This document shows positions 461 to 58,936 of a stretch of 64,000 nt of DNA, one piece after another. The stretch's first letter is position 1. Each line of letters begins with the position of its first letter. The stretch is from assembly GCA_946541845.1 (NCBI GenBank), contig CAMNJW010000001.1, positions 60,499 to 124,498 on the forward strand. The letters run 5' to 3'. This DNA is from an uncultured Methanobrevibacter sp. (lineage in GTDB: Archaea; Methanobacteriota; Methanobacteria; Methanobacteriales; Methanobacteriaceae). A program made the translations under genes and the position numbers. The notes under the pieces are model-generated. The model was not told the DNA's origin, did not search any database, and saw only the letters and a list, made by a program, of their open reading frames with translations.

Positions 461-559
461 ATATGAAAACAAGTATAATAAATTATATGTAAAAACTTAT
501 TTATAAACTTAATTATTTATTTAAATGGCATGTTCAAAAGTGGACTAATCTCAAAAATA

Positions 560-834
560 TAAGTGATCTAAAAAACCCAACTCCGCCCCGGGATTCTACA
601 AGCATTGAATGTTAACAGTAAAGCTGCTCCCTTCCGGGCCTGACCCATTTCCATATTGAAGATGACTAATCTTTACCCTCCAGTAAAAATCTCACCACCA
701 CCAATCCTGCAGGACGAGGTTTCTATGTTGTTTCTCTTAGGCTTATACTCTCTTAAAAAGCCGCCTCTTGAACTTCAACCGCACCAAAGGGGGTGTGTGC
801 TTACAGAGGACCCCTAACCCTCCGGTCTAGCCAC
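560..834 (-). ncRNA. ffs: Signal recognition particle RNA (archaeal 7S RNA)
   Basis: The minus strand contains the near-invariant SRP54-binding element GGCCCGGAAGGGAGCAGC (positions about 621-640, read in reverse) and an Alu-type 5' domain with GGTTAGGGG and GCGGTTGAAGTTCAAGAGGC near 740-820. The overall length of about 275 nt fits archaeal 7S RNA. The 5' end is placed at about 834 because a TATA box at 855-864 predicts a start there; the 3' end is approximate, set by pairing of the 5' and 3' termini (helix 1). It scaffolds SRP19 and SRP54 for co-translational membrane targeting. Confidence 0.93.
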
Positions 835-854
835 TAATAATTTATGACTTTAAT

Positions 855-5008: not shown

Positions 5009-6007
5009 CTATTCTTTTAATCCGCCGGTTGCTTCGTCATAACCGATTAATTCGTCGAATGCGGTAATTTTACATAATTTTTGTACTTCTTCTAAAGCTT
5101 CAGGATAAGCGTGAGTTGTAGGTGGTACTTCAGGAAGACCAATTTTAGTTCTTAAAGCTTTTGCAGCATCGTTAATAGGTACAGCGTGACCAGTATTCAT
5201 TACATATACACCAGTCATTTTGTGAGGTTTAGCCATGTATCCAGCGTGAGCTGCGATGTTACGTGCTTTTTTGATAATTTCTACAATTTTAACACTTCTG
5301 AGACATCTTTCTTGACAGGTGTAACAGGTAGTACACATCCATAATGCGTCATCAGAAATAACTTCTTCTTTTAAACCTAATAAACATTTTCTGACAATTT
5401 GTCTTACTTTGTAAGGGGTTCTTCTTCCAGATGGGCAACTACCACTACAGGTACCACATTGGAAACAGTGTTTTACAGTTTCGATACCTGCGTCAATAAA
5501 TTCAGCAGTGAAATCTGGATCACGATTACTATCATTTAATAATTCTTTATCAGTCAATAAAGTCATAGTATCTCTCTCTTTATCATTATTGTTTGAATCT
5601 TCTTCAACTTCCTCAACAACATCTTCAGTTGTCTCGTCTTCATCTTCAGGAGCTTCAATCTCTTCAGGAACTTCTTCCTCAACAGTTTCAACTTCTTCAG
5701 GAGCTTCTTCCACAGGTTCTGCTTCTGCAGGAGCTTCAACTTCTTCAGGAACTTCTTCCTCAACAGCTTCAGCTTCTTCCACAATTTCTTCAGATGAATC
5801 TTCTACAGGATCGATGTCTTTTTTGAAAGTTAAATCTTTTGGACTATCTTCTTCTGTTTTGACTTCAGAAGCGATAGTTTCTTCTACTTTTTGTGAAGAT
5901 GTAACTTCGACATCATTAGATGTGTTTGAAACATCGTTGCTGATGTCTGCTTCTTCTTTCTCATTATCTCCTTTAAATAAGGATTTAAGACGATTTATTA
6001 TAGACAT
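5009..6007 (-). CDS. hdrC: Heterodisulfide reductase subunit C with acidic N-terminal extension
   Basis: The C-terminal 185 residues are a normal HdrC: two CxxCxxCxxxC ferredoxin motifs (CFQCGTCSGSC and CTTCYTCQERC) that wire electrons from HdrA to HdrB. In front lies a long extension: an amphipathic opening (MSIINRLKSLFKGDNE), then about 120 residues dominated by Glu, Val, Pro and Ala. Three starts are possible. ATG 6007 is chosen because GAGGTG stands 7 bases before it; ATG 6031 has GGAG at 8 bases and adds eight residues; ATG 5566 (MTLLTDKELL, behind GAGAGAGATACT) would give a standard-size HdrC. A product from 5566 in addition to the long form is possible. Confidence 0.9.
   Translation of the reverse strand: MSIINRLKSLFKGDNEKEEADISNDVSNTSNDVEVTSSQKVEETIASEVKTEEDSPKDLTFKKDIDPVEDSSEEIVEEAEAVEEEVPEEVEAPAEAEPVEEAPEEVETVEEEVPEEIEAPEDEDETTEDVVEEVEEDSNNNDKERDTMTLLTDKELLNDSNRDPDFTAEFIDAGIETVKHCFQCGTCSGSCPSGRRTPYKVRQIVRKCLLGLKEEVISDDALWMCTTCYTCQERCLRSVKIVEIIKKARNIAAHAGYMAKPHKMTGVYVMNTGHAVPINDAAKALRTKIGLPEVPPTTHAYPEALEEVQKLCKITAFDELIGYDEATGGLKE
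5594..5797 (-). repeat. Glu/Val/Pro low-complexity repeat inside hdrC
   Basis: The DNA encodes an imperfect tandem run of blocks like VEEEVPEEVEAPAEAEPVEE and VEEEVPEEIEAPED. At nucleotide level the same GAAGAA/GTTCC units recur, so the segment looks expanded by slippage. The opposite strand shows a spurious Ser-rich reading frame as a by-product. Confidence 0.8.
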
Positions 6008-6073
6008 TGAAAACACACCTCGGATAATCATCGGATAATCTCCTCAAATCCATACTAATATTCTTTAAAAATT

Positions 6074-10613: not shown

Positions 10614-11066
10614 TTATTTTTTTAAATTCAAATCAATGGATTTTAATGTTAACTCGCTGAAAGTTTTCATGAATTCGGGATCCAAATCATTTAAACCCAT
10701 CCTAGTTTCCCAATCCTTATTAATCTCATACAAAACAGGAATAAAACCTTCACCCTTTTCAGTAAGCTTCAATACAAAATGACGTCTATCATGGACAGAT
10801 CTTTCCCGAGAAATCCACTTTCCATCTTCTAATTTTTTTACAGCTTTTGTAATGGCACCTTTTGTTAAATACAATCCCTGTGCCAAATCTTTTTGGTTTA
10901 GCTCATCACTTTCATGAATCATTAGAATGCATAAAGCCTGAATCAAACTCAAATCATATCTTGAAAGTTCATCATTTAAGTATTTTTTATGATTTTTGTG
11001 GAAAATAAAAAGAATATCTCCTAAACGGTTAGAATCATAAAACCCCATTGTCTTTTCAAATTTCAT
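10614..11066 (-). CDS. MarR family transcriptional regulator
   Basis: 150 residues with the standard MarR layout: dimerisation helices at both ends and a winged helix in the middle (LNQKDLAQGLYLTKGAITKA as HTH, then a wing with SVHDRRHFVLKLTEKG, including the conserved D-R pair). It is convergent with the dehydrogenase gene (13-bp gap) and divergent from the small-RNA pair that begins at 11151. Its ligand and target are unknown; the adjacent small-RNA promoters are possible targets by position only. Confidence 0.88.
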   Translation of the reverse strand: MKFEKTMGFYDSNRLGDILFIFHKNHKKYLNDELSRYDLSLIQALCILMIHESDELNQKDLAQGLYLTKGAITKAVKKLEDGKWISRERSVHDRRHFVLKLTEKGEGFIPVLYEINKDWETRMGLNDLDPEFMKTFSELTLKSIDLNLKK

Positions 11067-11121
11067 TAAACAATATTATATCAAAACAATTATTTAAACT
11101 TAAAAAAATCAAATGAAAACA

Positions 11122-11129
11122 TTTATATA
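11122..11129 (+). promoter_or_regulatory. TATA box of small RNA copy 1
   Basis: TTTATATA preceded by AAAACA, the same 14-base context as in copy 2 (AAAACATTTATATA). The start of the conserved ACGAT sequence is exactly 29 bases downstream in both copies. Confidence 0.7.
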
Positions 11130-11150
11130 ACATTAAAATATAAGTATTAT

Positions 11151-11277
11151 ACGATGTGAAGTAAAGTTCATGTCTAATAATGAAGACATCAACCATTTTA
11201 TAATCTCCAAAATGTTAGAATATGTTTCATTAAGGAAGTAGGAAAACACAACTACTTCCACTCCCCCCTTTATTTTT
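11151..11277 (+). ncRNA. Putative small RNA, copy 1 of a tandem paralogous pair
   Basis: No known RNA family is recognised. The inferred 127-nt transcript starts ACGATGTG, 29 bases after the TATA box start. It can form a 5' hairpin, GATGTG (11153-11158) with CATGTC (11169-11174) closing a 10-nt loop, followed by an unpaired core TAATCTCCAAAA (11201-11212). A 3' hairpin follows: GGAAGTAG (11234-11241) with CTACTTCC (11252-11259). The tail is C-rich then T-rich (CTCCCCCCTTTATTTTT). Copy 2 keeps all these elements in order. A 23-codon frame (11170-11241) exists here but is not conserved in copy 2, which argues for RNA rather than peptide function. Confidence 0.7.
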
Positions 11278-11344
11278 CAAAAAACAACCATTATAAAATA
11301 TTTTTACCAATTCTTAACTGATTTTAATAAAAAAAATAAAAACA

Positions 11345-11352
11345 TTTATATA
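11345..11352 (+). promoter_or_regulatory. TATA box of small RNA copy 2
   Basis: TTTATATA inside AAAACATTTATATA, identical to the copy 1 promoter element and 29 bases before the ACGAT start. Confidence 0.7.
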
Positions 11353-11373
11353 TTTCAAAAATATAATTAATAA

Positions 11374-11498
11374 ACGATATGAATTAAATTACATATCTAA
11401 AAGATGAACATCAGTCAACCTAGTTAATCTCCAAAACTACAAAATATGTTCAAAGAAGTAGTAAAAACTCATACTACTTCCTCTCCCCCTTTATTTTT
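11374..11498 (+). ncRNA. Putative small RNA, copy 2 of a tandem paralogous pair
   Basis: About 125 nt, starting ACGATATG. The 5' hairpin is GATATG (11376-11381) with CATATC (11392-11397), again around a 10-nt loop; two pairs that are G-U in copy 1 are A-U here. The core TAATCTCCAAAA (11425-11436) is identical. The 3' hairpin GAAGTAGTA (11455-11463) with TACTACTTC (11472-11480) has gained inner pairs, and the tail CTCCCCCTTTATTTTT matches copy 1. The CUCC core resembles the ribosomal anti-Shine-Dalgarno sequence, so pairing to ribosome-binding sites of target mRNAs is a reasonable guess. Confidence 0.7.
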
Positions 11499-11503
11499 AA
11501 AAA

Positions 11504-12295
11504 CTAAACCTCATCAAGAATGCTAGGGTCCGCACCAGCAATTTCAACCAAATATTCCGCCTCAACAATGTGAAGTTTTGATGGGATGACAATACAATGT
11601 AGAGGACCTCCAAAATCAAAATCAATTAATTCTTTAATCCTTCCGGCCTTTACACATACATTTTTTGAACCAACACGAGCAATACCCATCGCTAATGTAT
11701 TTTCAGTGATTAATCCATCTCTGTCCAATGTTTCATGAATATTCATCAAGTATTCCAATCCCTGATTGACAGTCATGTAACGGTCCTTATGGGCCTGGAT
11801 ATCCAACAAAACCAAAGTATGCAAATCCATTCTTAAATTTTCTTCAATTGCCTCATAAGGAGATTTCGGATAGAAATTATAATCCGGAAACGGAATTGTT
11901 GTTACCTTACCAAACTTGTATCCCTGAAGACCGGAAATGGCAGGTGCTGAGGACAGGATTGAAGACCCATGAATAATCTCATAGTCAATTCCCTTTTTGG
12001 AACATTGCACAATAAAATCACTATGAGTTGTTGCAATCAATGGATCTCCACCTGTGATTAATGCAACATCCTGATTTTTAGCCTCTTCAATGAATTTACT
12101 TTCCTCTTCAACTTCATTTCTGACCAATACCTCAATCTTTTTGCCAATTAACTCTTCAATGGCTTCAAAACTTGAACCGAATAATCTTGATGTAAAAAAT
12201 TCCGCATAGATTTTATCAACATTCCTTAAGCATTCCAATCCCTTAAGGGATATGTCCTTTTCATCAAATAATCCTAAACCCACTAAATAAAACAT
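11504..12295 (-). CDS. dphB: Diphthine synthase
   Basis: 263 residues of the tetrapyrrole (corrin/porphyrin) methylase fold: opening FYLVGLGLFDEKDISLKGLE, the SAM-binding GGDPLIATTH near residue 80, and HGSSILSSAPAISGLQGYKFG. These are diagnostic for DphB, which methylates the 3-amino-3-carboxypropyl histidine of elongation factor 2 on the way to diphthamide. Length is normal for archaea. It is convergent with the small-RNA pair and divergent from trm5. Confidence 0.95.
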   Translation of the reverse strand: MFYLVGLGLFDEKDISLKGLECLRNVDKIYAEFFTSRLFGSSFEAIEELIGKKIEVLVRNEVEEESKFIEEAKNQDVALITGGDPLIATTHSDFIVQCSKKGIDYEIIHGSSILSSAPAISGLQGYKFGKVTTIPFPDYNFYPKSPYEAIEENLRMDLHTLVLLDIQAHKDRYMTVNQGLEYLMNIHETLDRDGLITENTLAMGIARVGSKNVCVKAGRIKELIDFDFGGPLHCIVIPSKLHIVEAEYLVEIAGADPSILDEV

Positions 12296-58227: not shown

Positions 58228-58369
58228 AAAAATCACCTTTACTAACAATATTCTATCATTAGTACAAACTTACATAATATAATATATTTAAATTAATTTA
58301 ATATTTAAACTTAATTAATATATACTACTTTGAATATATTTATAATTAATAAATTGGAGAATTAACTGA

Positions 58370-58936
58370 ATGACACTTAATGTTCAAATTTTACTAATAG
58401 CATGCGTTACAACACTTTATTTTATTCTTCCCGCATACTTCTCAAACGGTGCAGGATTAGTGTTTGGAGGAGGCATGCCTGTTGATTTTGGCAAATCCGA
58501 TTCCAAAGGCAATCGTTGGATAGGCGATGGTGTAACATGGAGAGGTTTGATAGGCGGAACAATCATCGGAATTATAACCGGTGCATTACAGGGATACTTT
58601 GGGCCACAAATAATCTCACAGTTCGGCCAGTACATAATAACTCCAATCATAACAGACATTCCAAGCGGAATATTAATCGGATTTTTGCTTGGTTTCGGAG
58701 CCCTTTTAGGTGATGCAATAGGCAGTTTCCTAAAAAGAAGACTCGGAATTGGAAGAGGAAAACCAGCTCCTATATTGGATCAGCTAGATTTCCTGATTGT
58801 GGCATTAATACTGGTTTCATTTGTTGTTGAACTTAGCTTATTATTCATAGTGATAGCAATCGTATTAACCTTAGCCATACATTTAATTGCAAATAGCTGT
58901 GCTTATCTGCTTGGCATTAAAGATGTCTGGTACTAA
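58370..58936 (+). CDS. carS: CDP-archaeol synthase
   Basis: 188 residues, with four or five membrane helices. The polar loop FSNGAGLVFGGGMPVDFGKS and the GNRWIGDGVTWRGLIGGTII segment, followed by FLLGFGALLGDAIGSFLKRR and LGIGRGKPAPILDQLDFLIV, are diagnostic of CarS. It activates digeranylgeranylglyceryl phosphate with CTP. GGAG lies ten bases before the ATG. Confidence 0.95.
   Translation: MTLNVQILLIACVTTLYFILPAYFSNGAGLVFGGGMPVDFGKSDSKGNRWIGDGVTWRGLIGGTIIGIITGALQGYFGPQIISQFGQYIITPIITDIPSGILIGFLLGFGALLGDAIGSFLKRRLGIGRGKPAPILDQLDFLIVALILVSFVVELSLLFIVIAIVLTLAIHLIANSCAYLLGIKDVWY

Follow-up and report, generated by a model that had tools for sequence, protein, structure and literature searches.

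A tandem pair of predicted small RNAs in Methanobrevibacter, the first with a long antisense match to the start region of fdhA of relatives

Introduction

The closest described counterparts of the RNAs reported here come from Methanosarcina mazei. The small RNA sRNA162 of this methanogen has a single-stranded region that base-pairs with an mRNA encoded in trans and covers a predicted ribosome-binding site (RBS); RBS masking is given as its likely mode of action and as the common mode of bacterial trans-encoded RNAs (PMC3510493). According to the cited text, the masked site is an RBS inside a neighbouring operon that codes for a transcription factor, and sRNA162 has a cis-encoded mRNA as a further target (PMC3510493). 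M. mazei sRNA154 and sRNA41 are likewise intergenic and have been proposed to mask the RBSs of metabolic mRNAs; the targets described for them are several and belong to nitrogen or acetyl-CoA metabolism (PMC5867862). According to the same review, sRNAs encoded in trans 'act via limited base pairing' (PMC5867862). In contrast to sRNA162, the RNA described here matches its putative target over 20-28 nt in most genomes, covers the Shine-Dalgarno (SD) sequence, the AUG and codon 2 of a distant enzyme gene and is encoded in tandem units, and, unlike sRNA154 and sRNA41, it appears to have one main target, which lies in formate metabolism. Its long, near-perfect complementarity resembles that of a cis-encoded antisense RNA, but it is encoded far from fdhA.

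Formate serves gut and rumen Methanobrevibacter as an electron donor beside hydrogen. Gut and rumen members of the genus carry fdhABC, yet Fdh transcripts were reported to be lacking in rumen samples (PMC10658910). Furthermore, fdhAB of M. ruminantium M1 is described to rise in co-culture with Butyrivibrio (PMC2812497), and fdh is reported, beside work on Methanococcus maripaludis, to be up under hydrogen limitation (PMC3600222). Here, a window of 64,000 nucleotides, meaning the whole stretch of DNA that was analysed, from an uncultured Methanobrevibacter sp. (contig CAMNJW010000001.1, positions 60,499 to 124,498) was studied together with relatives, which are referred to by our own labels (G000 for the source genome). 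Among the matches listed for the literature searched, no description of such an fdhA-antisense RNA was recognised.

Two tandem units with predicted promoters and terminators

The locus at 11122..11498 contains two units on the plus strand, which can be aligned over the promoter (AAAACATTTATATA), the motif ACGAT, a 5' hairpin, the core TAATCTCCAAAA and a C/T-rich tail. The promoter of unit 1 (11116..11129) consists of an A-rich BRE-like stretch and the TATA box TTTATATA at 11122-11129, and the promoter of unit 2 (11339..11352) contains the same box at 11345-11352; ACGAT follows 29 nt on, at 11151 and 11374. Both units are where an earlier note on this DNA, made from the sequence alone, had placed them. 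Among 79 units that differ in their upstream sequence, the distance from TATA to ACGAT is 28-30 nt in 75 (58 units with 29 nt, 15 with 28 nt and two with 30 nt) and 39 nt in a single one, and three units have no TATA match. The predicted RNAs with their putative ends span 11151..11278 (unit 1, covariance-model match 7.3e-24) and 11374..11499 (unit 2, 1.3e-14), and the z scores of their folds are -3.41 and -4.51, respectively, with none of the 200 dinucleotide-preserving shuffles made for each unit reaching the native value. Both units end in a terminator-like hairpin and a C/T-rich tail (11234..11278, with the arms GGAAGTAG/CTACTTCC, and 11455..11499), which agrees with the hairpin of the GAAGTAG/CTACTTC type and the tail noted before. 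As far as can be read from promoter spacing, hairpin and tail, each unit of this intergenic locus thus has a promoter and a terminator of its own.

The 5' hairpin had been described with a 10-nt loop, which is found in the centroid structure of unit 2 only, whereas unit 1 (11153..11174) is predicted to fold into an 8-bp stem with a 6-nt loop. The hairpin is followed by a loop containing the candidate guide, which spans 11180..11230 in unit 1, where it is closed by AUGAAGACAU and AUGUUUCAU, and 11405..11452 in unit 2, where the arms are UGAACAU and AUGUUCA. Pairing of such cognate arms has a mean of -6.45 kcal/mol in 56 distinct units and -5.22 kcal/mol (sd 0.19) upon swapping of the arms between units, and none of 300 swaps matched the cognate pairing. 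The RNAalifold consensus contains the 5' stem and the terminator stem only. In the predicted ensemble, the guide of unit 1 is only about half unpaired (mean unpaired probability 0.52 vs 0.47 for the whole RNA), and the corresponding values for seven units of five relatives lie between 0.53 and 0.88.

The earlier note had relied on covariation of the first stem. Among 29 aligned units, this stem shows one-sided changes only (G-U/A-U, G-C/G-U, U-A/U-G) and not a single pair exchanged on both sides, so that stem covariation is too weak to serve as the chief evidence and was dropped as such; the terminator stem has two pairs changed on both sides in the same 29 units. As far as tested, the absence of a conserved peptide held up: when the longest closed frame is taken from each unit, the median length is 17 codons (maximum 36), the frames listed encode unlike peptides, and the units differ by indels of 1-2 nt. 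A small-protein gene was therefore rejected.

The two units are not equivalent. The guide of unit 1 lies at 11189..11212; in the corresponding part of unit 2 (11415..11437), UCAACC and AAUCUCCAAAA are kept and the middle is lost. A second unit whose sequence is also far from the guide is found in G029, G004, G010 and G107; in G101, the exact guide is kept in both copies. Unit 2 is a diverged tandem copy and not an equal partner of unit 1, and judging from its drifted guide, it is likely to be weak or retargeted. The view of the locus as a duplicated regulatory RNA can hence be kept insofar as it is a duplicated, probably regulatory sRNA, with the reservation that the second copy has diverged.

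Elsewhere in the window, an archaeal SRP RNA (522-837, minus strand) lies beside a tRNA-Ser gene (376-460), and an open reading frame at 5009-6031 encodes, as read by eye, a long acidic stretch rich in E, V and P followed by a cysteine-rich, iron-sulphur-like domain.

Distribution of the RNA family and its neighbourhood

A search of Rfam 15 with the two units and seven loci of relatives gave no match at or above a gathering score. When the cut-off was relaxed for the units of the window, the hits were confined to two microRNA families and stayed far under their gathering scores. The pair thus belongs to an RNA family that is absent from Rfam, in line with the previous statement that no named family has this layout. 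A DNA search of 61 genomes revealed units across the genus. The covariance-model search of relatives proposed in the earlier note was carried out as well and detected RNA loci across the genus and in other genera. A first model was built from 29 units and, when applied to 138 genomes of the family, gave matches in 66, namely in 62 of the 67 genomes of the same genus and in G063, G069, G089 and G160 of other genera. A real RNA locus is present in 57 of the 67 genomes, with a degenerate core in G008 and G097; the match in G022, G025, G032, G104 and G110 is the antisense strand of fdhA only. The match in G160 was discarded as a chance hit, since the stretch has no promoter, 5' hairpin or guide of the kind typical of the family. 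With a second model, applied to a selection of 40 genomes, the RNA was detected in eight of the 13 genomes searched from the genus of G079 and once more in G063 and G069; several further matches of this model are the antisense strand of fdhA. A match in G067 was taken as contamination, as its sequence equals that of G093, a genome of a different genus. A downstream motif, AAATTACCTTAAAA(A/C)TT or a sequence near it, is common to the RNAs of the genus of G079.

The constant neighbour of the RNAs is dph5, encoding diphthine synthase (11504..12295, minus strand; TIGR00522, 335 bits), which faces them. It was found within the fetched flanks in 52 of the 54 genomes checked, including G063, G069 and G079, and because of this adjacency, the RNA loci can be regarded as positional homologues. 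On the other side, a divergently encoded MarR-family regulator (10614..11066, minus strand; Pfam MarR_2 and MarR) adjoins the RNAs in the window; it was seen in nine of 54 genomes only, with short flanks, and was rejected as a constant partner.

Complementarity of the guide to the fdhA start

In many genomes, the DNA search of 61 genomes returned a second site that matches query positions 75-99 only. This site is the start of fdhA (TTTTGGAGATTATAAAATGGTTGA), the gene for the formate dehydrogenase alpha subunit (TIGR01591, 918 bits). Read as the reverse complement, positions 11189-11212 of the window are identical to the fdhA start of close relatives, from the SD sequence through the spacer and the AUG to the fifth base after it. 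The core TAATCTCC, previously described as a CUCC-containing mimic of the anti-SD sequence, is part of this 24-nt antisense stretch; it can indeed pair with a Shine-Dalgarno sequence, but it does so as part of a long, gene-specific antisense to the fdhA start and not as a general mimic. In G029, the gene order is fdhC, encoding a transporter of the formate/nitrite family, then fdhA, then fdhB, which starts 17 nt past the fdhA stop codon. The RNA of G029 is located at 1,681,163 and fdhA at 205,292, which is 1.48 Mb apart by contig coordinates; the RNA is thus not encoded opposite fdhA in this genome, as a cis-antisense RNA would be.

Uninterrupted pairing of guide and leader, with G-U pairs allowed, extends over at least 14 nt in 49 of 58 genomes and at least 18 nt in 44 of them (median 23.5), and in most of the 58 genomes it spans about -18 to +7 around the AUG; the RBS complementary to the RNA therefore belongs to an mRNA that is encoded elsewhere. 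The 58 genomes are those with both a unit and an fdhA leader, and where several units are present, the best one was scored; G000, G007, G019, G031 and G114, which have a unit and no fdhA leader in the table, were left out, as were G088, G097, G098 and G121, in which a unit was seen and not entered. Unit 1 pairs with the fdhA leader of G029 over 27 nt with a predicted energy of -39.9 kcal/mol. By comparison, its interactions with 84 candidate leaders (59 window ORFs) reach a maximum of 16 nt and a best value of -27.4 kcal/mol (mean -18.2, sd 4.1). The longest run between unit 2 and the same G029 leader is 12 nt.

The fdhA gene was not found in the source genome G000, a draft of 118 contigs with a completeness of 84.7%, and the pairing for the source organism hence rests on its relatives. 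Contig C81 of G000 ends inside fdhC, with fdhD beyond, and has 92% identity to G029. Since fdhA directly follows fdhC in G029, its absence from G000 is most likely due to the assembly gap. Many drafts of the genus have contig breaks inside or close to fdhA or fdhC, and the absence of fdhA from such drafts therefore means little.

Co-change of guide and leader

Guide and fdhA leader hardly vary within the genus. The start region of fdhA is conserved with 1.48 bits per column, and those of fdhB and fdhC with 1.49 and 1.54 bits per column (42, 36 and 30 leaders, respectively), so that conservation of the target is no evidence for pairing. G063, which belongs to another genus, carries an A-to-T change in its fdhA spacer (GGAGATTATATAATGG), and its dph5-linked RNA shows the matching T-to-A change (CCATTATATAATCTCC). 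A second antisense stretch of this genome on contig C58 (L191:80-225) contains CTCAACCATTATATAATCT, which matches over 19 exact nt and has the same base change; there, a TATA-like box is followed by the antisense sequence between a hairpin and a terminator-like stem, with no dph5 near it in the piece read. The RNA of G063 pairs with its own leader over 17 nt (-30.2 kcal/mol) and better with that of G029 (20 nt, -34.3 kcal/mol) because of extra upstream A/U pairs. Duplex strength is therefore not specific for the cognate partner, and a partner swap is no clean control.

Other genomes show a mixed picture. In G008 and G013, the leader has diverged and so has the core (pairing over 10 and 8 nt), and in G005 and G030, the leader is unfit and no RNA was found with the covariance models. 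G028 and G117 have kept a good core though their own fdhA leaders pair with it over 12 and 11 nt only, and in G010 and G100, a base has been added to the leader or changed in it without a matching change in the RNA. Across 83 genomes, leader fit and core presence are associated (54/15/3/11; Fisher p 9e-5, with kinship ignored). In this table, which is based on a strict pattern, G069 and G098 count as 'not found' although units were seen, G013 counts as 'found' despite its 8-nt pairing, and G088 was added by hand.

Specificity and other candidate targets

A 23-mer of the guide with up to two mismatches occurs in 61 of the 67 genomes of the genus, and its backward-read control in none of them. 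The exact 23-mer was found in 58 stretches among 84,980 species genomes, 57 of which are titled Methanobrevibacter. The remaining stretch is on a MAG contig titled 'Cellulosilyticum' that encodes the same fdhA with the exact start region; this contig is probably misbinned. A match in G059, a distantly related archaeon, has two mismatches, does not lie at fdhA and was set aside as chance.

The exact 16-mer TGGAGATTATAAAATG occurs at 38 sites in 15 near-complete genomes; 17 of these sites are the RNA, 14 are fdhA and seven are a gene for a membrane protein. There are 2-4 sites per genome including the RNA, one in G010, and the two sites of G029 are the RNA and fdhA. This assignment of all 38 sites led us to reject a general RBS consensus as an explanation. 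In the same vein, we consider it very unlikely that the match is a by-product of a common RBS, with the RNA acting as a general anti-SD element for which the fdhA leader is merely typical. Such a role would agree with the RBS of fdhA being conserved no more than those of fdhB and fdhC, and with the genus of G079, whose fdhA leader keeps this RBS where the RNA matches 13-15 nt only (six of seven scored genomes); however, the few sites per genome show that the 16-mer is not a common RBS, and the match reaches into the coding region and is accompanied by the matching change in G063.

In 11 loci, one per genome, the RBS TGGAGATTATAAAATG is shared by the membrane-protein gene, which on this ground is a possible second target of the RNA. 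Its first 60 residues have no Pfam match, and in G034, it follows a gene that was read by eye as cbiT. That this or another conserved mRNA is the main target and the fit to fdhA secondary is quite unlikely. The cores retained in G028 and G117 alongside poorly fitting fdhA leaders and the exact 16-mer at the membrane-protein gene in seven of the 15 near-complete genomes would speak for it; however, the exact 16-mer is found at fdhA in 14 of these 15 genomes, the guide extends to codons 2-3 of fdhA, where the membrane-protein gene differs, and the changed base of G063 follows fdhA. As a separate observation, the start of a small ferredoxin gene (Fer4 domains) in G108 and G096 is TTTGGAGATTATAAAATGGCTGA or one base off.

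For unit 2, the best of the 84 leaders was the start of carS (window 58370; region 58325-58400), with -34.9 kcal/mol in a stretch of 63 nt and -40.5 kcal/mol in one of 90 nt. We attribute this hit to chance, as the relatives' own units give -11 to -28 kcal/mol in the 10 genomes, out of 18 fetched, in which the carS start was located by script.

Discussion

Taken together, unit 1 is probably a trans-acting antisense RNA that would pair with the fdhA mRNA, block the ribosome and lower formate dehydrogenase. Points against this reading are the good cores of G028 and G117 beside poorly fitting leaders, the leader changes of G010 and G100, the short pairing in the genus of G079, the ordinary conservation of the fdhA start, the lack of cognate specificity in duplex strength and the half-unpaired guide of unit 1. 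The RNA, predicted to be transcribed from its own promoter, would pair through its guide with the SD sequence and the AUG of the fdhA mRNA. The long duplex presumed to form in the cell would mask both elements and stop initiation, so that less formate dehydrogenase would be made and formate use would be switched off. Since the long antisense match in G029 covers the fdhA start only, the enzyme would be cut and the upstream-encoded transporter FdhC could be spared; fdhB, given its short distance to fdhA, would likely fall along with fdhA.

We infer repression rather than activation. A reading in which the RNA pairs with the fdhA leader to the opposite effect, as an activator or as a stabiliser that might protect the mRNA against nucleases, is quite unlikely. 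M. mazei sRNA154 is described to stabilise some mRNAs and to mask the RBS of another (PMC5867862), and the evidence for pairing is the same for both modes of action. However, the match covers the SD sequence and the AUG, which a ribosome must reach and which should stay free if the RNA served to stabilise the mRNA.

Under the masking mechanism, repression of fdhA would be relieved when hydrogen is scarce or formate plentiful; we infer this release from the reported rise of fdh under hydrogen limitation and of fdhAB in co-culture. Its mode of action would then correspond to that of the RBS-masking RNAs of M. mazei, from which the RNA would differ by a much longer, gene-specific guide, by its tandem units and by having an enzyme gene as its main target. 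It is conceivable, if still doubtful, that host-associated methanogens have a tandem cassette in which copy 1, with its near-perfect guide of 20-28 nt, is fixed on fdhA as a hydrogen/formate switch and copy 2 is free to retarget, and that a second, unlinked antisense RNA has arisen in G063.

If the proposed mechanism is true, a long, near-perfect antisense match would act in trans, as opposed to the limited pairing of trans-encoded sRNAs. Masking of fdhA would add a further layer of control to the contrasting reports on Fdh transcripts and offer a precise sequence for testing, and the choice of gut methanogens between hydrogen and formate would thereby become testable.
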